DNA of 23,670 nucleotides, taken from IMG/VR virus record IMGVR_UViG_3300009167_000032, positions 1 through 23,670 of that record. The stretch is one strand, 5' to 3'. Each line of letters begins with the position of its first letter. Within the stretch, counting starts at the first letter, position 1. This document shows, in pieces, positions 9,591 to 19,270 of the stretch. This DNA comes from a virus. The translations under genes and the position numbers were made by a program. The notes beneath the pieces are model-generated. The model was not told the origin of the DNA, did not search any database, and saw only the letters and a list, made by a program, of their open reading frames with translations.

Positions 9591-10424
9591 TCAGGCCGGA
9601 CCGGGAGCGGAATCCCCCGCCAGCCCGGGGGCGGCCACCGCCGGGGCCCCGGGGGCATCCCAGTCCACGCCCCGCTCCTTCCACGCCCGGGTAGCGAACC
9701 TCGCCATCTCCATCAGCGAGAGAATGTTCCGCAGGTTCAGTTTCTTGTACTTCTCCACGATCGCGCGCCAGCGCATCATCGATTCCTCGTCATCCTGCAT
9801 GCCGATCAGGCGGGGCTTCCGGCTCTTCGAATCGAAGGACATCAGCCGGCGATACTTCCCGCCCACGATGTACGAGGTCGCGTCCACCGAATAGAAGGGA
9901 TAGCGATCCCAGATCCACCACGCGTTCAGACCATACGCATGAGTCTTCAGCCCGGGCTTCCTCCTCACGATCGAAAAGCAGTTGTCGAGATGGGCCCGCA
10001 GCCGACTCTTGTTCCGCTCCCGAGCGATTCCCCCCAGCGCGATGTAGTCGTACCGTTCCACCATCCGCTCCAATTCCTCGTATGGCGAGCGCGCATGGAA
10101 GGTGGCCATCGGAGCCAGCCCGAGCGCCTCCATCCTCTCCTGATTCTCGCGGGTCTTGACGTAGTCCCCGATCACGTCGAGGTTCGCGTACACCGTCAGG
10201 AAGGGGAGCACCCTCTTCACGAACTCCGCATACGCGTTCAGGTCGATGGTCACGCCCTTCGTCATGGCGGTGAAGGCCCCTGAATCGAGGAACACCCTCC
10301 CCTTCACCTTCGACAGATCCACCCGCTTGTCCGATTGAATGTAGTAGTACGAGAACAGACAGTCCGCCCCAGCCTCCTGCAGCAGCGGGAGGAACGCCTC
10401 TGCTCCGGCGAAGTACAGGATCAC
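9591..10424 (-). CDS. dpdA: DpdA-like DNA guanine transglycosylase
   Basis: This 277-residue protein belongs to the tRNA-guanine transglycosylase superfamily in its phage DpdA form, which exchanges guanine in DNA for a 7-deazaguanine such as preQ0. Key points along the chain are VFLDSGAFTAM (D47, the counterpart of the TGT DSGGF active-site motif) and YANLDVIGD (D83, D87). ALGGIARERNKS (G131-G132) is the base-binding loop, and SVDATSY (D181) is the likely nucleophile region. The C-terminal 25 residues are an Ala/Pro/Gly tail. It starts at GTG 10424, overlapping the preceding stop as GTGA. It is last in an operon with all four preQ0 synthesis genes, which strongly supports the assignment. Compared with bacterial TGT (about 370 aa) it is short, as phage forms are. 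Confidence 0.87.
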   Translation of the reverse strand: MILYFAGAEAFLPLLQEAGADCLFSYYYIQSDKRVDLSKVKGRVFLDSGAFTAMTKGVTIDLNAYAEFVKRVLPFLTVYANLDVIGDYVKTRENQERMEALGLAPMATFHARSPYEELERMVERYDYIALGGIARERNKSRLRAHLDNCFSIVRRKPGLKTHAYGLNAWWIWDRYPFYSVDATSYIVGGKYRRLMSFDSKSRKPRLIGMQDDEESMMRWRAIVEKYKKLNLRNILSLMEMARFATRAWKERGVDWDAPGAPAVAAPGLAGDSAPGPA

Positions 10425-10594
10425 TTCGAGGTCTTCCGCATCTCGTCAGCCAGCCAGATCACGTCCGCGATCAGATCGGCCATCACCTCCGTCAGATCAT
10501 CCTGCGTCACCGGGGTCGCGTCCCCCTGATCGTCCGTCACCCGTCGATGCAGATCCTGCAGGTCCGAGATGATCTCGTCCATCACGCGACGCAT
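10421..10594 (-). CDS. Small acidic protein in the modification operon, 57 aa
   Basis: A short frame fills the gap exactly between the 186-residue gene and dpdA. It starts at ATG 10594 one base after the previous stop, and its stop overlaps the dpdA GTG. This packing is good evidence of translation. The protein is helical and acidic, beginning MRRVMDEIISDLQDLHRRV and ending LIADVIWLADEMRKTSK, with no cysteines and no membrane segment. It could be a small partner of DpdA or of the upstream nuclease-like protein, but this is inferred only from gene order. No family is recognised. Confidence 0.65.
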   Translation of the reverse strand: MRRVMDEIISDLQDLHRRVTDDQGDATPVTQDDLTEVMADLIADVIWLADEMRKTSK

Positions 10595-10595
10595 T

Positions 10596-11156
10596 TCAGG
10601 TTCTCTCGAAATGCCGGGCGTCGATCATGTAGCAGGACTCCACGACCGGCTTCCCGTTTTCATATACCCGCCCGTTCCTTCCATGCGTCTCGACAGGGCA
10701 GTTCAGGACTCCATCCAGCGGATCGTACATCTTGCAGGTACGAACCCCGTCATCGAACCCCACCACGAAATAGAAATTGCACGCCCGCTCCTTCGCCTCG
10801 GCGATGCACTTGTCCGCCTTCGCTTTCGACAGCCAGATGTTCGGGTATCTCCTGTACGGAACGTGTCGCCTCTTCATCTCCATCAGCGCGAACAGGATCT
10901 CCGCGCTCCGATCGTGAACCTCGAAGTCGAAATGATGCAGCGGGGGCATCTCCGTCGATTGCATCCACGGGAACTTCCCGCACAGCGCCGCCATGATCTC
11001 CCGCTGCTCGACCCGGTCCTCCTCCTTCTCGAAGATCACGCCCGGACTCACCACCTCCACCTGCGCCGGGGATGGATCGAAATGCGTCGCCACGACATCC
11101 GTCCACTCCTCGTCCTCCCACTCGTCCGCCCCGGGCTCGCGCATCACTTCGCCCAT
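10596..11156 (-). CDS. Unknown protein, possible PD-(D/E)XK fold, in modification operon
   Basis: This 186-residue protein starts at ATG 11156 after AGGAGGAGG. Residues 1-50 are acidic. The central part looks like a restriction-nuclease-type core: D77 and D82 in FDFEVHDRSAEI, then LMEMKRR with E93 and K95. A helix (WLSKAKADKCIAEAKE) and a core strand (NFYFVVGFDDGVR) follow. A D82-x10-E93-x-K95 spacing and the following strand match the PD-(D/E)XK pattern seen in several phage nucleases, but this is pattern reading, not proof. It lies between gpt-folE and the 57-residue gene, so it probably serves DNA modification or discrimination of modified from unmodified DNA. It could instead be a non-nuclease accessory protein. 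Confidence 0.7.
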   Translation of the reverse strand: MGEVMREPGADEWEDEEWTDVVATHFDPSPAQVEVVSPGVIFEKEEDRVEQREIMAALCGKFPWMQSTEMPPLHHFDFEVHDRSAEILFALMEMKRRHVPYRRYPNIWLSKAKADKCIAEAKERACNFYFVVGFDDGVRTCKMYDPLDGVLNCPVETHGRNGRVYENGKPVVESCYMIDARHFERT

Positions 11157-11172
11157 CGCCTCCTCCTCTCGT

Positions 11173-12078
11173 TTACTTCTTCCAGTCCAGCAGGGCGAGG
11201 AACTCCGCCCGGGTCGCCGGATTCTCCCGGAACCTGCCCCGCAGGTCTGATGTCACCATCTCTCCTTGATTCTTGATCCCCCGCAGTTCCTTGCAGAGAT
11301 GCCGGCCCCGCAGCACCAGCGCGATCCCCAGCGGCTGAATCGACGCCTCGAGGTCGTCCACGATCTCCTTCACCAGCCGTTCCTGTATCTGCAGTTTCGC
11401 CGCGCGCCACTCCACCAGCCGGGCCACCTTCGACAGCCCGATCAATTTTCCCGCCGGGGCGGGGATGTAGGCGAAATAGTAGTCCCCGAAAAACGGCAGC
11501 ATGTGATGCTCGCAGAACGAATAGAACCTTCCCCGATCGGAGATCATCGAGTCATACGACACGCCGTCCTTCCCGTTCGGGAACGCCGTCAGCCGGGGAG
11601 CGGCGTCGCCATACCCCCGAAAGATCTCCCGGTACATCTGCGCGACCCGCTTCGGGGTGTCCGCCAGCCCTTCCCGGTTCGGGTCCTCGCCGATCGCCGA
11701 CAGCATCCGGGTCACGTTGTCCTCGATCGTCTCCTCCTTGCGCTCCCACGGAAAATGAATCCAGTCGGCCGTCTCGTGGACATGGTAATGGGCCCGCGCC
11801 GAGGCGTGCGGCTTCGAGTACAGGGCCGCCGTCACGTACTTCTTCAGGAACGGCTCGATCGTCCTTCCCGAATCCACGATGTCGTCGACGATCAGGGTGC
11901 TGCGGCCCGGTTCGTCGTGAACAGGGAGACGCAGTCGATGCGCCACCTCGAGGGCGACGTACCCTCCACCCCGGGGAATGCCCCAGACTCCGGTGAACCG
12001 ATGCCTCTTCTTCCCCATGAACTTCCCCGCCAACGCCGCGCAGTCCTTCCTGAACTGCTCCCACGTCACATCCTTCAT
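11173..12078 (-). CDS. folE: Gpt-like phosphoribosyltransferase fused to GTP cyclohydrolase I
   Basis: This 301-residue fusion has two enzyme domains. Residues 1-112 resemble E. coli Gpt. VTWEQFRKDCAALAGKF matches its N terminus in style, VWGIPRGGGYVA is the first active-site loop, and LIVDDIVDSGRT (62-73) is the PRPP-binding loop with D65 and D66. ADWIHFPWE (104-112) matches the base-binding tail of Gpt (DTWIEQPWD). Residues 117-301 are GTP cyclohydrolase I. FCEHHMLPF supplies zinc ligands C189 and H192 and catalytic H191, RHLC supplies H260 and ligand C262, and RGIKNQGEMVTSDLRG follows. The FolE part makes dihydroneopterin triphosphate, the first step to preQ0; the Gpt part should convert guanine or xanthine plus PRPP to the nucleotide. 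ATG 12078 overlaps the queE stop as ATGA. Confidence 0.92.
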   Translation of the reverse strand: MKDVTWEQFRKDCAALAGKFMGKKRHRFTGVWGIPRGGGYVALEVAHRLRLPVHDEPGRSTLIVDDIVDSGRTIEPFLKKYVTAALYSKPHASARAHYHVHETADWIHFPWERKEETIEDNVTRMLSAIGEDPNREGLADTPKRVAQMYREIFRGYGDAAPRLTAFPNGKDGVSYDSMISDRGRFYSFCEHHMLPFFGDYYFAYIPAPAGKLIGLSKVARLVEWRAAKLQIQERLVKEIVDDLEASIQPLGIALVLRGRHLCKELRGIKNQGEMVTSDLRGRFRENPATRAEFLALLDWKK

Positions 12079-12800
12079 CTTCCGCGCACCCCTTCCCAGA
12101 GTTCGACATGAAGCCGGGGCGACAGCCGGTACCCCTGCCGCTTGCACACTTCCGCGAGAGCCTGCATTCGCCGCACCCGCTCCGCTCCCCGCACATCCTC
12201 CCCGGTCCGGGGCATGAGTATGATCCGGGAGACGGGGATGCCGTACTTCCGCTCCAGTTCCCTGATCCTCACCATGTCCGTCCGGGGATCGTCCACCACG
12301 AACTTGAAGTACGCCTTCCCGTTGCGGAGGAACGCCATGATCGCGTCGGGGATCTCCGTCTCCACCCGGTTCTTCGCGTTCCCGATCTTGATGCAGACAT
12401 TGAATTGATCGATGGCCGCCGTCAGGGTCGGCGCCGGAGGGATCGTCCCATTCGTCTCCACCTCGACGAATATCTTCTTGCGCTTCAATTCCCGGGCGAG
12501 GTGTGCCACCACTCCCGCCTGCAGCAGCGGCTCCCCACCGGTGACGACGACGTGCTTCGCCGGGAACTTCTCCACCTCGTCCACCATCTTCAGGACCGAC
12601 ACCTTCTTCGTATCGTTCCAGACCTTCCACGCGTACGTGCTGTCGCACCACGCGCAACGAAGATTGCAGCCCGACAGGCGAATGAACACCGCGGGGACAC
12701 CGAGGTGAATCCCCTCGCCTTGCAGGGAGTAGAAGACCTCCGAGACCCTCAGTACGACAGGGTCACGAGGTTCGACTGGTCGCCCTTGAATCCCTCCCAC
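12075..12800 (-). CDS. queE: 7-carboxy-7-deazaguanine synthase QueE
   Basis: This radical-SAM enzyme converts 6-carboxytetrahydropterin to 7-carboxy-7-deazaguanine. The [4Fe-4S] motif is CNLRCAWC (CX3CX2C, C45, C49 and C52 from the GTG start). The family opening VSEVFYSLQGEG precedes it, and TGGEPLLQ and VEVETNGTIPP follow. The start is unclear. GTG 12800 has a GGGGGTGA-like site and gives 241 residues, but overlaps queD by 52 bases. The conserved family sequence begins only at a CTG at 12752, which overlaps the queD stop. A CTG start would give 225 residues, nearer the usual family length. The frame has no ATG close to either. The stop overlaps the gpt-folE start. Confidence 0.9.
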   Translation of the reverse strand: MGGIQGRPVEPRDPVVLRVSEVFYSLQGEGIHLGVPAVFIRLSGCNLRCAWCDSTYAWKVWNDTKKVSVLKMVDEVEKFPAKHVVVTGGEPLLQAGVVAHLARELKRKKIFVEVETNGTIPPAPTLTAAIDQFNVCIKIGNAKNRVETEIPDAIMAFLRNGKAYFKFVVDDPRTDMVRIRELERKYGIPVSRIILMPRTGEDVRGAERVRRMQALAEVCKRQGYRLSPRLHVELWEGVRGR

Positions 12801-13144
12801 ACCCTCACCCCCACCACGAACGTCCCGGCCGGTAGAATTTCTTGAACTTCCTGCCAGAGCAGGGTCGCGAAGTTCTCCGCCGTCGTCGGCCTCGACTCGT
12901 AGTTCTTCACCTTCTTGAACTCGTCGTTCAGGTATCGATGATCGAACCGCCGCAGGACTTCCTTCACCCGACCGAAGTCCACGACGATGTCCTCCATCTC
13001 GATCCCGCCACGACCTTCCGCCTCGATGTCCATCTCGACCTTGTAGGTATGGCCATGCAGATTGCAGCACTTCTTCGTCGTCAGCCACGGCATGTCCGGC
13101 AATTGATGCGCGCACTCCAAGAAATCCACCACCGTCACCATCAT
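12749..13144 (-). CDS. queD: 6-carboxy-5,6,7,8-tetrahydropterin synthase QueD
   Basis: This 131-residue enzyme turns dihydroneopterin triphosphate into 6-carboxytetrahydropterin. Zinc ligands are H13 in ECAHQL and H30 and H32 in CCNLHGHTY; the catalytic cysteine is C26 or C27 just before. FDHRYLND (D69, H70) and VWEG (E117) complete the active site, and PTTAENFATLLW is a family hallmark. Length is typical. I use ATG 13144; GGAGGTGAG lies upstream, and a GTG at 13150 has even better spacing and would add two residues. A farther ATG at 13189 would overlap queC and has no ribosome site. It sits four to ten bases downstream of queC. Confidence 0.93.
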   Translation of the reverse strand: MMVTVVDFLECAHQLPDMPWLTTKKCCNLHGHTYKVEMDIEAEGRGGIEMEDIVVDFGRVKEVLRRFDHRYLNDEFKKVKNYESRPTTAENFATLLWQEVQEILPAGTFVVGVRVWEGFKGDQSNLVTLSY

Positions 13145-13154
13145 CTTCACGACC

Positions 13155-13841
13155 TCACCTCCCGCCGTCCTCGACTCCCGCTTCCGCAAACGCCGCCGCC
13201 CGGGAGATACACGTCGGACAGGTTCCGCAAGGAGCGGGCCCGCCGGCGTAGCACGACCACGTCAAGGCGAACGGCAACTTCATCGACGCCCCCTTCCGAA
13301 CGACATCCGCCTTCGTCATCCACGCCAGCGGGGTCACCAGCCGGACCTTATGATAGGTCCCGACGTAGATCGCGTTCGCCATCGCCCCGAGAAACTCCGG
13401 GGTGCAGTCCGGGTATGCCCAGTTTCTCGCATCCTCCGCGTGCATCCCCGCGTAGATGTACCCGACCTGATGCCGCAGGGCCAGCGCAGCCGCGACCGAC
13501 AGCAGGTTCCCGTTCCTGAACGGAACGTATGTCGGGGAGACACCGAACGACTCCTGCAGTTCCTCGTAGGTCATCTTCGGCAGCGGCGCATCCGGGTCGG
13601 TCAGGGTCGATCCCTGCCCCCGGAAGATTCCCGGGTCCAGCGTCACCACCTCGTGCGGGACCCCGTAATAGGTCGACACATCCTTCGCCGCTCCTACCTC
13701 GCGTTCATGTTTCTGACCGTACGACAGGGAAAGGGCCCGCACATTCTCTTCGCCGAACGCCCCGACGGCGATGGCCAGACAGACCGAGGAGTCAAGACCT
13801 CCCGACAACAGCACCAGCGCGCGTTTCTTTTGTGGCTGCAC
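13155..13841 (-). CDS. queC: 7-cyano-7-deazaguanine (preQ0) synthase QueC
   Basis: This 228-residue enzyme uses ATP and ammonia to convert 7-carboxy-7-deazaguanine to preQ0. The PP-loop ATP site is SGGLDSS at residues 13-19, and VPFRNGNLLS (106-115) is a family motif. The zinc cluster C197, C205, C208 and C211 sits in SCYAGGPAPCGTCPTC. The start is GTG 13841 with a perfect AGGAGG six bases upstream. The gene overlaps the preceding HNH gene by 50 bases. There is no fused glutamine amidotransferase domain, so the product should be preQ0 itself rather than an amidine precursor. Confidence 0.94.
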   Translation of the reverse strand: MQPQKKRALVLLSGGLDSSVCLAIAVGAFGEENVRALSLSYGQKHEREVGAAKDVSTYYGVPHEVVTLDPGIFRGQGSTLTDPDAPLPKMTYEELQESFGVSPTYVPFRNGNLLSVAAALALRHQVGYIYAGMHAEDARNWAYPDCTPEFLGAMANAIYVGTYHKVRLVTPLAWMTKADVVRKGASMKLPFALTWSCYAGGPAPCGTCPTCISRAAAFAEAGVEDGGR

Positions 13842-14193
13842 CCTTCACCTCCTTGATGTACTGATTCAACGTCATCTCCACGAGGGACCAGTCGATCTTC
13901 CCCATGATCCCCATCGCCCGCATCTTCAGTTTCTCGAACCTGCCCGGAGGAAACCTCCCCATGAGAAAATCTCGGAAGATCTCCGGGTCCTCGTGCGCGA
14001 TCCGAATATGACAGTAGAAGCAGAGCAGGATTCCATTCTCCGGGTCCCAGCGGGTGGCCTTGTGACGTCTCGAGAAAATATGATGGGCTGCCGTTCCGAC
14101 GTTCTTGCAGGACCGATATTGACAGCGTTCTCCGTCGCGCGCTCGGACCGCATCCCGCCACAGCGCGTCGAGCCGTTTTGTCCGTGGGTCCAT
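13792..14193 (-). CDS. HNH endonuclease at head of modification operon
   Basis: This 133-residue HNH protein has C24 and C29 in RCQYRSC, the H37-H38 pair in TAAHHIFSRR, N53 in DPENGILLC, and C58, C61 and H66. The C-terminal half is helical and basic (FEKLKMRAMGIMGKIDW). It starts at ATG 14193, which has no ribosome site. A promoter-like pair ends eight bases before the ATG, so the message may be leaderless. It is the first gene of the modification operon and overlaps queC. It may nick or repair DNA, or may be a homing-type passenger; nothing visible decides between these. An upstream extension to 14355 would run through the terminator and is rejected. Confidence 0.82.
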   Translation of the reverse strand: MDPRTKRLDALWRDAVRARDGERCQYRSCKNVGTAAHHIFSRRHKATRWDPENGILLCFYCHIRIAHEDPEIFRDFLMGRFPPGRFEKLKMRAMGIMGKIDWSLVEMTLNQYIKEVKGAATKETRAGAVVGRS

Positions 14194-14201
14194 TGTGGGG
14201 G

Positions 14202-14231
14202 AGGATAGATCCCCGTCCAGCAGAAAGTAAA
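14202..14231 (-). promoter_or_regulatory. Candidate promoter of the modification operon
   Basis: On the minus strand TTTACT (14231-14226) and TATCCT (14207-14202) are 18 bases apart, directly after the terminator U-run. The predicted start falls at or within two bases of ATG 14193, which would explain why that gene lacks a ribosome site. The match to consensus is four of six at each box, so this is tentative. Confidence 0.35.
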
Positions 14232-14233
14232 GC

Positions 14234-14274
14234 AAAAAAAAACGCCCCGGAGGGGGCGAATCCCCCGGGGCGTT
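14234..14274 (-). terminator. Strong intrinsic terminator
   Basis: On the minus strand a 10-bp stem AACGCCCCGG/CCGGGGCGTT continues with three more G-C pairs past a bulged base and is followed by nine Ts. It is a textbook Rho-independent terminator for leftward transcripts, and separates the early region from the modification operon. Confidence 0.92.
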
Positions 14275-14320
14275 CCAAGCGGAGGCGATCCGCTGGGCTC
14301 TCCGAAGAAGGAGAGAAGGC
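14234..14320 (-). ncRNA. Candidate small RNA of three hairpins, about 87 nt
   Basis: Between a promoter-like site and the terminator lie three back-to-back hairpins and no reading frame. They are CTCTCC/GGAGAG (14298-14315, 6-base loop), AGCGGA/TCCGCT (14278-14294, 5-base loop) and the terminator hairpin (14241-14274). The spacing is compact, with only three bases between successive hairpins. The expected 5' end is near 14320, seven bases after the -10 box. It looks like a free-standing short RNA rather than an mRNA leader because it ends at the terminator. It could also be just a reinforced terminator for read-through from the right. Confidence 0.5.
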
Positions 14321-14324
14321 AAGA

Positions 14325-14355
14325 ACAGGGTAAGACTCCCCGCCCACCCTGTCAA
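14325..14355 (-). promoter_or_regulatory. Promoter with overlapping operator-like dyad
   Basis: On the minus strand a perfect TTGACA (14355-14350) is followed after 17 bases by TACCCT (14332-14327), which keeps the key T, A and final T of the -10 box. A perfect 7-base inverted repeat, ACAGGGT (14325-14331) and ACCCTGT (14346-14352), overlaps both boxes. The arm centres are 21 bases apart, two helical turns, as expected for a repressor dimer. The only thing downstream before the terminator is the candidate small RNA. Confidence 0.5.
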
Positions 14356-14371
14356 GTAAATCCATCACCTT

Positions 14372-14937
14372 TCCTTTCCTTGCCGATCTCCTCCGGTCCT
14401 CTACTTTCCACGCCGCTCCTGCCAATCCCTTCCCTTCCGATACGCTCCCTTCTTCACCGCTCCCCTCCCTTCCTTTCCTGCCGGTCCACTCCAGTCGTGT
14501 CCCCTCGTATCCAGTCTTCGCCACTCCTGCCTTGCCTCTCCGTACTACTCGCCTCCATTCCATTCCCCTCCTGCCTTGCCCTTCCACTCCGGTCGTCGCC
14601 GGTCTACTCCGGTCCGATCCCCTCTCTTCCGGTCCATTCCCTTCCTGCCGATCCTATCCCTGCCGGTGCATTCCTTTCCGATCCGCTCCTGCCCCGCCCC
14701 TCCCGTCCTATCCCTTCCACTCCGATCCCGTCCGATCCGCTCCGCTCCTGCCCTGCCTTTCCGGGCCAGTCGCCTCCGTTCCATTCTGCTCCATGCCGAT
14801 CCCATCCTGTCCTGCCGATCCGGTCCATTCGTCTCCGGTCCCTTCCAATTCCCTCCGATCCAATCCGCTCCTGCCTTTCCAATCCGCTCCGGTCGATTCC
14901 CCTCTCCGCCATTCCGATCCGTTCCTATTCTGTTGCC
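14372..14937 (-). repeat. Degenerate pentamer array with regular phase shifts
   Basis: About 566 bases are built from TCCNN units (NNGGA on the transcribed strand), roughly 113 copies with the second and third positions nearly invariant. Nine TCCTGCC motifs, at 14417, 14476, 14525, 14569, 14643, 14687, 14746, 14810 and 14869, each contain one 4-base unit (TCCT). All eight spacings (59, 49, 44, 74, 44, 59, 64, 59) equal 5k+4, so the lattice is kept exactly between phase shifts. Several frames on both strands stay open over it only because the unit rarely makes stops; I see no ribosome-site support for any. It starts right after the stop of the 162-residue gene and ends just before the small-RNA promoter. 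Confidence 0.88.
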
Positions 14938-15426
14938 TTACTTCACGACGCGATCGATCTCGGCCCACACCGACACGAGTTCCACGAGGTATTTGTACTT
15001 CTGCCGGATGTTCAGCAGCCGCGCCTTCACGTCCGACAGGAGTTGCTCGCGCATCTCGTCCGAGGCGATCGCATCCTCGATGGACTCGTATGCACGCTCC
15101 CGACTCTCCGTTCCCGCGATGCTTGGGAACGCCGGGGCGAAGACCGCTTCCTCTCCCTTCTCGTCCTGCTCGACGATGTACACCATCGCGATGAGTTGCC
15201 GCGCCTTATGCGTTCGCCAATTCGCCGCCTGCATCGCCTCGCTCTCATCGAAGAAGTACGAGTGAAGGGGATGATTCTCCGGCTTCGCCTCCTGCCAGAG
15301 ATACCTCGGCAGTTGCTGTTCCTTCCCCTCCTTCCCGCACTTGATACGGACGCGGACTATTTCCGCAGCCACTTGTTCCGCAGGGATCGCGGGTCGCGCC
15401 CCTCCCCTGCGGTAGATGTACCGCAT
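14938..15426 (-). CDS. Conserved phage protein of unknown function, 162 aa
   Basis: The gene starts at ATG 15426 behind AAGGAGGAG and lies two bases after the previous stop. The N terminus is basic (RYIYRRGGARPAIPAEQVA). The middle carries the phrase HPLHSYFFDESEAMQAANWR followed by HKARQLI, a pattern I associate with small phage proteins of unknown role. The C-terminal third is helical (LLSDVKARLLNIRQKYKYL). No catalytic motif is visible. It is co-transcribed with the 225-residue gene and is the last gene before the pentamer array, into which its transcript would continue as a long 3' untranslated region. Confidence 0.75.
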   Translation of the reverse strand: MRYIYRRGGARPAIPAEQVAAEIVRVRIKCGKEGKEQQLPRYLWQEAKPENHPLHSYFFDESEAMQAANWRTHKARQLIAMVYIVEQDEKGEEAVFAPAFPSIAGTESRERAYESIEDAIASDEMREQLLSDVKARLLNIRQKYKYLVELVSVWAEIDRVVK

Positions 15427-15428
15427 CG

Positions 15429-16106
15429 TCACTCCTCCTTGTTCTCTGCGGACATGACGACACGGAACGTCCCATTGTATCCAGACTTCTCCACGCGCCA
15501 CCCGCAAAGGCCGACGGAGAATCCGGCGAGGTTCATCATGTTCACGATCTGCGCGGGAGATATGATCGCCTTGTTGTAGCGGACAAGAACGGCCGCCTCC
15601 CACGAATCGAACACGGGCCGCCATATCGGACGAGGCGTCTTCGACGGCCCGACCCTTCCGATGTCCTCCTGCACCCGATATCCCGGGGACGAGAACTCCA
15701 CGAGGTTCCCCTCCGTCCCGATGACATGGATCGCCTGCATGAGAAACGTCTTCGTGATCTTCTTGTTCGTGGACGTGCAGGCCGACACCATCGCCTTCTT
15801 CAGCCCGCTCGCAGGGAAGGCGTACTTCCCCTTCGACGTCAGGTAGAGTTTCTCCTTCGCCTCCTCCTCCGGGTTCCGTGCGGACCGAATCATTTCCGTC
15901 TGCTCGCCGGTATGACTCAGCGCCATCTGCTGCCGCGTCTTCACCGACCAGTTCTCGAGGATCAGCGGAGCCGTCCCCTTGATGTTCACCCGCAGCAGCC
16001 CGACCTGCAGCGGCTCGAGAATGACGCTCGCCGGCGCCTCTGTCTTTTTCCCCTTCTGAACCTTCTCCTCCACCTTCTCCGCCACGTTCGTCTTCGCCCT
16101 CGCCAT
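15429..16106 (-). CDS. Conserved phage protein of unknown function, 225 aa
   Basis: This protein starts at ATG 16106 and is preceded by the repeated leader box AACCCACAACG. Residues 1-25 are lysine-rich. A beta-rich core follows (LLRVNIKGTAPLILENWS), with GKYAFPASGLKKAMVSAC, PIWRPVFDSWEAAVLVRYNK and ISPAQIVNMMNLAGFSVGL. The pattern of a strand-rich core opening with a GTAPLI motif is shared by proteins of many phages, but the function is unknown to me. A nucleic-acid-binding role is possible given the basic N terminus and replication neighbours; that is inference. It has no signal or membrane segment. Confidence 0.72.
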   Translation of the reverse strand: MARAKTNVAEKVEEKVQKGKKTEAPASVILEPLQVGLLRVNIKGTAPLILENWSVKTRQQMALSHTGEQTEMIRSARNPEEEAKEKLYLTSKGKYAFPASGLKKAMVSACTSTNKKITKTFLMQAIHVIGTEGNLVEFSSPGYRVQEDIGRVGPSKTPRPIWRPVFDSWEAAVLVRYNKAIISPAQIVNMMNLAGFSVGLCGWRVEKSGYNGTFRVVMSAENKEE

Positions 16107-16135
16107 TGCCTTCTCTCCTCTCCGTTGTGGGTTCG
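16107..16135 (-). repeat. Repeated leader box, copy C
   Basis: The sequence directly before the 225-residue gene contains AACCCACAACGGAGA followed by a purine-rich ribosome site. The same order and spacing occur before the genes starting at 17236 and 23552. Confidence 0.55.
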
Positions 16136-16157
16136 CTTCCTCCCGAACTTCGCCGCG

Positions 16158-16874
16158 TCAGGCCAGCACGTTCATCGTCGGACACTCCGCCGCCAGCCAC
16201 TTCCTCACGTTCTCGATCGCCTCCCGCTTCCACGCCCCGCCGTCGGCATTATGCAACGCCGCCGTCGGCATGGACCCTCCGCCTCCGCTCCGCATCCGCA
16301 GAACAAACTTCGATGCGGGCTGCTCCACCTCGATGAATGTCCGGTAGGGCCGCAGGGAGACGGGATTCGGTACCCTCGCCTCGGCCCTCCGATCGATCCC
16401 AGCCTTCTGCGTGATCTTCTGCGATACCCCGTCATCCGCCCAGTCCGTCACGTTCCCGTCGGCGATATTCCCGACGGTCTTCAGCAGCAGAGCCGTCGCC
16501 TCGTCCTGCACGAACTGACTCTGCAGCGCGATGATGAACGTCTCCAGATCGATCCGATCGCCGAACTCGAACCGCTCGTGCTTGCAACCCGCCACGAGGT
16601 AGCAGGTCCGGGTCTTGAACTTCGGGTCCACCGCCGACAGCACCCGCACATGATCCGGCGCGACGACATGGATCAGGGAGTTCCCCGCCGATATTGCGTC
16701 CGGGTTCTTCACCACGTAGTCCCGCAGCCCGGTCAGGGTCTCCACTTCGATCTGCTTCTGCATCGGGGGCTGCACAAGATTGATCGCCCTCGTCGCGTAT
16801 GGCAGTCCATCCTGCTCGATGATCTTCGCTTCCGACAGTTGCTCGATCTTCTCGATGAAACTCTTGTCGATCAT
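16158..16874 (-). CDS. Phage protein, possibly YfdQ/DUF2303-like, 238 aa
   Basis: This 238-residue protein begins with a charged helix (MIDKSFIEKIEQLSEAKI). It carries RPYRTFIEVEQPASKFVLRM near residue 175 and ALHNADGGAWKREAIENVRK near the C terminus. These phrases resemble what I know of YfdQ/DUF2303 phage proteins, whose function is not established. The resemblance is from memory of motifs, so I give it modest weight. The start at ATG 16874 overlaps the preceding stop as ATGA, so it is coupled to the 121-residue gene. No membrane or signal segment is present. Confidence 0.72.
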   Translation of the reverse strand: MIDKSFIEKIEQLSEAKIIEQDGLPYATRAINLVQPPMQKQIEVETLTGLRDYVVKNPDAISAGNSLIHVVAPDHVRVLSAVDPKFKTRTCYLVAGCKHERFEFGDRIDLETFIIALQSQFVQDEATALLLKTVGNIADGNVTDWADDGVSQKITQKAGIDRRAEARVPNPVSLRPYRTFIEVEQPASKFVLRMRSGGGGSMPTAALHNADGGAWKREAIENVRKWLAAECPTMNVLA

Positions 16875-17236
16875 GCCTTCCCTCCCTGAATTGTAATGAC
16901 GTCGCCCTCGCCATCCGCCTGCTTACCGAACGCCAGCCGCGCCTGTTGCGGGACATGCTCGAGGGCCGTCGGCCCCTCCTGCCCGCGCGCGAAGTAGAAG
17001 GTCGTCGCGCAGGGCCTTGGCGGCTGCGTCCTCGCATGACAGAAGACCTCCACCGCTCCCGTCATCCGGTCCGGGGCCGGCTTGATGCGGACCTTCAGCA
17101 CGATCTCCCTCGGCCCGTCCCCGGTGTTCACGTCCGCGATGTTCTTCACCACGCCGTCCAGCACATCGTCGAAGCGTTCGATCACCGCTCCCCGCGCCAG
17201 ACTCGCCAGCGATACCCGATCGAAGTCTGCTCCCAT
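16871..17236 (-). CDS. Conserved small phage protein, 121 aa
   Basis: The protein opens with LASLARGAVIERFDDVLDGV and VVKNIADVNTGDGPREIVLK, followed by a strand pair (KVRIKPAPDRMTGAVEV). This layout, with a start segment ERF.....V..NI.D.NT, matches a small family often annotated in Gram-positive phages as replication terminator protein, though the name rests on weak evidence. It starts at ATG 17236 after a strong AAGGAGGG site inside the repeated leader box. It overlaps the start of the 238-residue gene. A role in phage DNA metabolism is likely from the neighbourhood. Confidence 0.72.
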   Translation of the reverse strand: MGADFDRVSLASLARGAVIERFDDVLDGVVKNIADVNTGDGPREIVLKVRIKPAPDRMTGAVEVFCHARTQPPRPCATTFYFARGQEGPTALEHVPQQARLAFGKQADGEGDVITIQGGKA

Positions 17237-18400: not shown

Positions 18401-19270
18401 TCACTTCTCCTTCGGTTCTGCGTACCCCTTCTTCTTGAGCCAGTTCTTCGCCACTTCCGCGCCCCGGGCCCCCTGCTCGGTCATCCTCCCTTGCATCTCT
18501 CCGGGCGGTGAATTCAGGTACCCCTCGAACTTCGTTCCGAACAGGGTCTGCGGCCGGAGGTAGTCCATCATCTTCGGATCATCCTTCCACTTCGCGACTT
18601 GATGATCGATCACCTTCTTGAAATCATCGAAGGTGAATCCCTGCTTCATCCTCGTCCTGATCAATCGCAGGGTCTCCGGGGTCGTCGCCCGGTACTTCTT
18701 CTCCGCCTTCTCATTCAGGTACGCGACGATCGAATACACGACGGTGACACCTGAAGAGGCCCCCGCACCATTCGAGGGGTCGGGCTTGCCCGACAGAAGA
18801 TCTTCTACCCCTTCCCCTTCCCCATTCCCCATTCCCAATTCCCCATTCTCCATTCCCTTCCCCATTCCCCTTCCCTCGCGGCTGTCACCGGTACTTAACG
18901 GTGGGGTAACGGGTAAGGAACCGTGTTCCATCGGGGGAAGGACGGATTCCCTCTCGGTATGATGCGGCTTCTGATGCTTCTTGAAGTTCAGAATTTGTAT
19001 GTAGCGGCGGCCACTTACTTCATACCGGACGATGAACGGCTCCTGCGTGATCGGCTTCTTCTCCAGCAGGGGAGAGAGGACTTGTTTCTCGAAATCGATG
19101 TCGTCGTATGGAAAGATCTTGACCTTCAGATACTCCGGCCGGTCCTCCAGCCGTCCTTCCCGGTCTGCGTAGCACCACAGCCCGGCGAACCCGATCCTTG
19201 TCTCGAACGAGAACCGACAGAGGTCCTCATCATCGAAGAAGTCAGGTTTCAGGTATCTGATCCTCGGCAT
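18401..19270 (-). CDS. Replisome organiser / replication initiation protein
   Basis: This 289-residue protein has two domains. Residues 1-105 (RIRYLKPDFFDDEDLCRFSF, FAGLWCYADREGRLEDRP, YIQILNFKKHQKPHH) form the winged-helix domain found in phage replisome organisers, which bind the origin. Residues 175-255 (VVYSIVAYLNEKAEKKYRA, RMKQGFTFDDFKKVIDHQV, LRPQTLFGTKFEGYLN) match the conserved phage C-terminal domain (Phg_2220_C type) that contacts helicase or its loader. Between them, residues 132-155 are a Gly/Met/Glu low-complexity linker encoded by a purine-rich hexamer repeat, possibly the origin. The ATG at 19270 has a GAGGGG ribosome site that can be masked by an upstream RNA structure. Confidence 0.88.
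   Translation of the reverse strand: MPRIRYLKPDFFDDEDLCRFSFETRIGFAGLWCYADREGRLEDRPEYLKVKIFPYDDIDFEKQVLSPLLEKKPITQEPFIVRYEVSGRRYIQILNFKKHQKPHHTERESVLPPMEHGSLPVTPPLSTGDSREGRGMGKGMENGELGMGNGEGEGVEDLLSGKPDPSNGAGASSGVTVVYSIVAYLNEKAEKKYRATTPETLRLIRTRMKQGFTFDDFKKVIDHQVAKWKDDPKMMDYLRPQTLFGTKFEGYLNSPPGEMQGRMTEQGARGAEVAKNWLKKKGYAEPKEK
18809..18874 (-). repeat. Purine-rich hexamer repeat inside the organiser gene
   Basis: About eleven imperfect hexamers of the type GGGAAT/GGGGAA encode the linker GMGKGMENGELGMGNGEGEG. In several phages the origin repeats lie inside the initiator gene, as with the lambda O gene, so this tract could be the origin or an unwinding element. It may simply be a slippage-prone linker. 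Confidence 0.6.

Follow-up and report, generated by a model that had tools for sequence, protein, structure and literature searches.

The hairpin stretch at 14234–14355 of an IMG/VR virus record most likely forms the 3′ end of a VIPR operon with a GGANN guide-RNA array

The DNA analyzed here (the window) comprises 23,670 nucleotides of IMG/VR virus record IMGVR_UViG_3300009167_000032. An earlier note had described the region 14234–14355 as an orphan small-RNA gene with its own repressed promoter. As judged from the sequence, this region most likely forms the 3′ terminus of a VIPR transcript, including its terminator, rather than such a gene; the probability that it forms the 3′ end of a VIPR operon is estimated at roughly 0.85. 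VIPR (Viral Interference Programmable Repeat) is a recently reported CRISPR-like system, in which Vipr, a RAMP homologue, is accompanied by an accessory vap gene (PMC13142463; bioRxiv 2026.04.26.720920 v2). The VIPR guide RNAs contain 9–16 repeats in which GGY is constant and NN varies freely; double-stranded DNA is recognized with one base skipped between pairs (i.e. two bases in three), the skipped base falling on the codon wobble base (PMC13142463). A literature search for VIPR or vrRNA revealed no other paper on this system among the matches listed. In the window, a single leftward transcript would contain the Vipr gene, the accessory gene, ten guide blocks and, finally, the hairpins and terminator (14355–14234). 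The positions of these features are summarized in Table 1.

Table 1. Features of the putative VIPR operon and of the flagged stretch (positions are those of the window).
Feature	Position	Strand	Basis
Vipr-family protein, 225 aa, RAMP fold (predicted), phrog_4652	15429–16106	minus	PHROG E 3e-15
Accessory protein in vap position, 162 aa, phrog_15946, function unknown	14938–15426	minus	PHROG E 1.5e-13
Guide-RNA (vrRNA-like) array: 104 GGANN pentamers in ten blocks, mostly ended by GGCA	14370–14930	minus	hand parsing
Block 1, 11 units	14876–14930	minus	one match, 21/22
Block 3, 11 units; decoded target: major capsid genes of other phages	14758–14812	minus	
Block 6, 13 units; decoded target: major capsid genes, GSGTGEPLGIL site	14581–14645	minus	
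Block 8, 9 units; suggested decoded target: presumed tyrosine integrase gene (VDLYGHLVP)	14483–14527	minus	one match
Promoter-like TTGACA-17-TACCCT	14327–14355	minus	read from sequence
7-base inverted repeat ACAGGGT/ACCCTGT, centres 21 apart; stem-loop in RNA	14325–14352	minus	sequence
First stem-loop after the inverted repeat	14298–14315	minus	sequence and fold
Second stem-loop after the inverted repeat	14278–14294	minus	sequence and fold
Intrinsic terminator: GC-rich stem (14274–14241) and U tract (14242–14234)	14234–14274	minus	terminator scan, fold

Directly upstream of the flagged stretch, and on the same strand, lies a pentamer array of approximately 560 bases that had been overlooked in the earlier note. 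The entropy per pentamer position (104 units, hand-parsed blocks) is 0.74, 0.35, 0.69, 1.96 and 1.98 bits; since these values are low at the first three positions and near maximal at the last two, GGA is held while NN is nearly random. The lag-5 excess peaks within the array (0.31, compared to a window mean of 0.004, sd 0.053). The third base is A in 91 of the 104 units, and 32 units deviate from GGA. The blocks consist of 8–13 units (one of the ten has 8) and end mostly in the 4-base sequence GGCA, with nine of the ten followed only by GGCA or a similar sequence. No CRISPR direct repeats with spacers were found, and both a tandem-repeat finder and parsing showed degenerate pentamers. Since the array begins 7 bases past the stop codon of the accessory gene, its transcript needs no promoter of its own.

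Foldseek analysis of the AlphaFold2 model of the Vipr-family protein (pLDDT 76.1) against the PDB gave 102 matches at E≤0.001; the best 50 of these 102 are all CRISPR Csm, Cmr, Cas7-11 or type VII structures (one of the 50, 7x7r, is titled only “a bacterial protein”). For a relative from locus L161 (pLDDT 93.5), the 50 PDB matches listed are CRISPR Csm, Cmr and type VII structures. A RAMP fold like that of Csm3/Cas7 is predicted for the window protein. Its family is annotated in PHROG as “function unknown” and also contains the Vipr protein of SUSP2 (E 1.4e-96), a relative of the preprint's SUSP1. The accessory protein belongs to a family (phrog_15946) shared with UmaThurman gp41 and a protein of locus L182 (7175–7624), and is matched at 3.3e-11 by a profile built from ten array-side genes. 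The accessory proteins of SUSP2 and LittleE are assigned to phrog_5926.

Elsewhere in the window, the minus-strand region 9591–13841 contains a queuine tRNA-ribosyltransferase (DpdA-like) gene, together with genes reading by eye as FolE, QueE, QueD and QueC; this is probably a 7-deazaguanine DNA modification cluster. An imperfect CCCATTC tandem repeat (10 copies; position 18808–18875) is located within a replication-initiation-like gene (18401–19270).

The distribution of similar arrays was examined by sequence scans. A search for ten GGANN units detected 81 stretches in viral contigs and at least 117 in one-per-species genomes; in total, 306 records were scored, drawn from the matches listed in scans that included a seven-unit scan of viral contigs. 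Two kinds were distinguished among them, homogeneous microsatellites and diversified multi-block arrays. With diversified loci defined by an NN entropy of 3 bits and 20 units, and low-diversity loci by an entropy below 2.5 bits and a run of at least 8 (intermediate loci uncounted), at least 41 diversified loci were identified, including the window and one locus (L203) from the genome collection. A Vipr-family profile matched 36 of the 41 diversified loci, compared to 3 of 203 low-diversity GGANN loci. The former fraction is partly obtained by construction, since 26 of these loci (19 distinct sequences) had served to build the profile, and the 3/203 serves as the control. The 36 loci, near-copies included, represent 28 distinct protein ends, and in all 36 the Vipr-family gene and the array are on one strand. 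No match to the profile was found in the remaining diversified loci, L060, L138, L152, L156 and L181. Three loci with a Vipr-family gene (L142, L146 and L165) contain low-diversity 19-unit GGANN arrays, possibly composed of recently duplicated guides, and a second, shorter GGANN array is present opposite the main one, on the minus strand of L161.

A tblastn search with the L161 protein detected 133 named-phage records. In each of eight named loci with a Vipr or accessory protein, the gene is accompanied by a nearby pentamer array, recognized from the lag-5 signal and by inspection, with C or T as the third base (8 counted positions each for Medea1 and phiHSIC). The guide array of UmaThurman (L312, 4241–4564) has been annotated as protein gp40, and in phiHSIC (L311, 3611–3892) ORF21 overlaps the guide array on the opposite strand. 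Pieces resembling tRNA (T-arm and acceptor-like by eye) separate the blocks in LittleE (L308, 4139–4504), MakoManhole (L306, 2884–3236) and L140 (6642–7200); no tRNA was called in these separators by ARAGORN or Rfam, and they are possible processing signals. In L067 (6887–6956) and L186 (8770–8839), the pentamer array is immediately followed by a tRNA-like gene whose anticodon is odd, and a tRNA in L067 was the only Rfam match in 12 array loci. The closely related phages L062 (10498–11778) and L147 (3703–4608) carry 20 and 15 guide blocks, respectively, which are partly shared, indicating block turnover between relatives.

The guides were decoded by reading the NN of each unit with one free base between successive pairs (the 1-nt skip of the preprint), a pattern that resembles codons with a free wobble base. 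Scans of the viral collection covered blocks 1, 3, 6 and 8 of the ten. A search with nine units of block 3 matched 12 viral contigs, and in 11 of them the site is located in a major capsid gene, on the antisense strand and in one codon register. Four of the 12 matches (three distinct sequences) agree at 22/22 positions, including both outer units, which were absent from the search pattern; the twelfth match (L322, 20/22) lies in a different gene. In the matched loci, which had been chosen by the skip-1 scan, block 3 reaches 22 at skip 1 compared to 15 at skips 0, 2 and 3. The 11 target capsid proteins are 53–67% identical to that of the window where aligned. Ten units of block 6 gave seven matches (23–25 of 26; these include copies of one sequence in L330/L332/L335 and in L331/L333), and all seven frames read GSGTGEPLGIL at the site. 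Five of the targets (L329, L330, L332, L334 and L335) align to the window capsid protein with E 0.0002 or better, whereas the capsid label of L331 and L333 rests on the shared site, since their alignment reaches only E 0.014–0.015. The window's own capsid gene mismatches both guides (15/22 for block 3 and 20/26 for block 6). Two guides of the array can be decoded to putative targets in the capsid genes of other phages.

Block 8 reads V-D/E-L-Y-G-H-L-V-P, and its only exact match in the viral collection lies in frame within an ORF which we take, from its sequence, to encode a tyrosine integrase; this target is suggestive. The single match of block 1 (21/22) is out of codon register and may be due to chance. 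Scans with blocks 1 and 8 that used 18 fixed bases, as for block 3, gave one match each, which provides a rough background only. In the targets of blocks 3, 6 and 8 the skip falls on the codon wobble base, in agreement with the preprint (PMC13142463).

Comparison of 170 blocks from the array loci with 1.8 Mb of loci (arrays masked) revealed no excess at any skip; at skip 1, at least 85% was reached by 5/170 blocks, compared to 6/170 with shuffled order. A second comparison, of 175 array-locus blocks with target loci L314 and L316–L335, doubles as a control for blocks 3 and 6. In this case, at least 85% was reached by 0/175 blocks at skip 1, 1/175 at skip 0 and 1/175 at skip 3.

In the flagged stretch itself, the letters described in the earlier note are all present: the perfect TTGACA, the 17-base spacer and TACCCT, the 7-base inverted repeat with its centres 21 bases apart, and the adjacent stem-loops ending in a strong terminator. 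The RNA 14234–14322 folds with −48 kcal/mol (z −4.87; 0 of 200 shuffles equally stable), and the terminator scan recovered the same terminator stem (15 pairs). The proposal that this phage region encodes a structured non-coding RNA and ends in a strong terminator was borne out. No Rfam match and no tRNA were found in the window. No DNA relatives of 13800–14960, in which conservation of the hairpins would be visible, were found in the phage collection, nor were close relatives of the accessory or HNH protein found among the viral contigs.

A tentative refinement, not exclusive of a VIPR operon, is that the hairpins are processed into a functional tail for block 10, the last guide RNA. The vrRNAs of the SUSP1 and P. 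fulva systems carry an invariable structured 3′ tail (PMC13142463), and a hairpin-like separator repeatedly follows the blocks in L118 and L151. However, the hairpins occur only once in the window, with blocks 1–9 ending in GGCA or the like, and this role is rather doubtful. The invariant tail is not taken as defining all VIPR types, since staggered, ribozyme-interspersed and single-guide architectures have also been reported (PMC13142463).

That the stretch is an independent small-RNA gene is improbable. Transcription would then start near 14320 from TTGACA-17-TACCCT, with a repressor acting on the inverted repeat, to yield an 87-base triple-hairpin RNA. The promoter geometry and the strong fold speak for this reading, but the −10 box matches TATAAT at only 3/6 positions (the −35 box is perfect), and a perfect TTGACA followed at 16–18 bases by a box matching 3 of 6 occurs twice in the window, compared to a mean of 1.25 in 40 shuffles; the promoter is weak and not clearly above chance. 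Furthermore, a consensus promoter scan of 12000–17000 listed none, and the searches gave no relative carrying this stretch in which conservation would show. There is an excess of 7-base inverted repeats in the 122 bases (5 starts, terminator stem counted, compared to 0.22 expected). The one at 14352–14325 exceeds chance locally, but as RNA it just adds another stem-loop. What looks like a promoter and an operator is most likely the first stem-loop of the 3′ trailer of the array, and the idea of a separate, repressed promoter was not upheld. Nor is the unit an orphan, as it directly follows the guide-RNA array, whose transcript would span it anyway. Read-through from the gene at 14938–15426, the case that the earlier note had set against its own reading, is more economical, since the array and this gene lie directly upstream on one strand. 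A second transcription start near 14320, alongside the array transcript, is possible.

Two readings of the array as something other than a set of guides are both very improbable. CsrA-like proteins bind GGA, and TRAP-like ring proteins have a pentamer register; the GGA core and strict 5-base period would suit an RNA sponge for such a host protein, but a sponge predicts neither the decoded capsid-gene matches nor the linked RAMP-fold gene, and these two findings likewise disfavour the G-quadruplex and R-loop readings. A neutral simple repeat with chance matches would agree with the homogeneous GGANN microsatellites present in many genomes, but not with an NN of near maximal entropy while GGA is held, with 11/12 and 7/7 matches in one gene kind and one codon register, or with the 0/175 blocks at skip 1 in the same target loci.

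In the VIPR operon, which remains the preferred explanation, Vipr subunits would coat each block, holding GGA and presenting NN. The complex would bind double-stranded DNA through two of every three bases, skipping the third, and repress genes of competing phages. The architecture of the array, the predicted RAMP fold, the association of arrays with Vipr-family genes and the capsid-gene matches of blocks 3 and 6 come from the sequence analysis presented here. Against this explanation stand the predominance of A at the third position, where the main motif of the preprint has Y, the units that depart from GGA, the lack of an invariant tail after each block, the out-of-register match of block 1 and the 170-block test, which gave no skip-rule signal. 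The array is most likely of the known VIPR kind, with GGA in place of the GGY stressed in the preprint. All VIPR types are reported to use GGY/NN “or a related consensus”, and “GGA” is absent from the main text (PMC13142463).

In a tree of 37 Vipr-family proteins, the window protein is nearest to that of L182 (GGA arrays, 41% identity), followed by those of UmaThurman and Ecliptus, whose arrays contain GGC/GGT; well-supported branches force at least two changes of the A label. This difference in the third repeat base among relatives offers a route to the residues that read it. The balance tilts slightly towards a broader proposal, in which GGANN would be a large separate VIPR dialect (41 loci, A as third base) that uses the 1-nt skip for at least the window's array, with at least two switches between A and C/T along the Vipr tree. 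The phage would direct two guides to separate sites in the major capsid gene, and another to an integrase gene, to silence rivals while sparing its own diverged capsid gene.

The window and arrays were picked before the preprint was found, and they support a guide code in which two of every three DNA bases are read. This code is decodable for a GGA-type array to concrete genes, and the capsid-gene guides provide a prediction on warfare between phages that is testable in laboratory strains. Most likely, the phage's own RNA-guided weapon ends in the flagged hairpins.

Compared with known systems, the terminator resembles other intrinsic (rho-independent) terminators in its GC-rich stem and U tract, and differs in the stem-loops that precede it. 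With class 1 CRISPR-Cas (type III Csm3/Cas7 filaments) the window shares the RAMP fold seen by Foldseek, but it has no CRISPR array and its guide is interrupted rather than contiguous. The nearest named Vipr relatives are those of the Gordonia phages UmaThurman and Ecliptus, which have the same accessory family and whose records do not recognize VIPR. The UmaThurman array contains GGCAGG phase shifts, like the GGCA of the window, and the arrays of these phages differ from it in the third base. VIPR type II of Escherichia phage SUSP1 (compared through its relative SUSP2) differs in its GGYNN repeats, its invariant structured tail on each vrRNA, where the window has GGCA between blocks and no such tail, and its accessory family (phrog_5926 in SUSP2); the decoded targets of the window are capsid and integrase genes. 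A strict Y at the third base does not describe the window, but the wider wording of the preprint (PMC13142463) does, with GGA/NN pentamers in blocks of 8–13 and a near-random NN. Both systems have a phrog_4652 Vipr with RAMP fold, an adjoining gene in the accessory position, pentamer arrays with GG held and NN free, and targets in phage genes read with a 1-nt skip on the wobble base, found in the window for blocks 3 and 6 and suggested for block 8.
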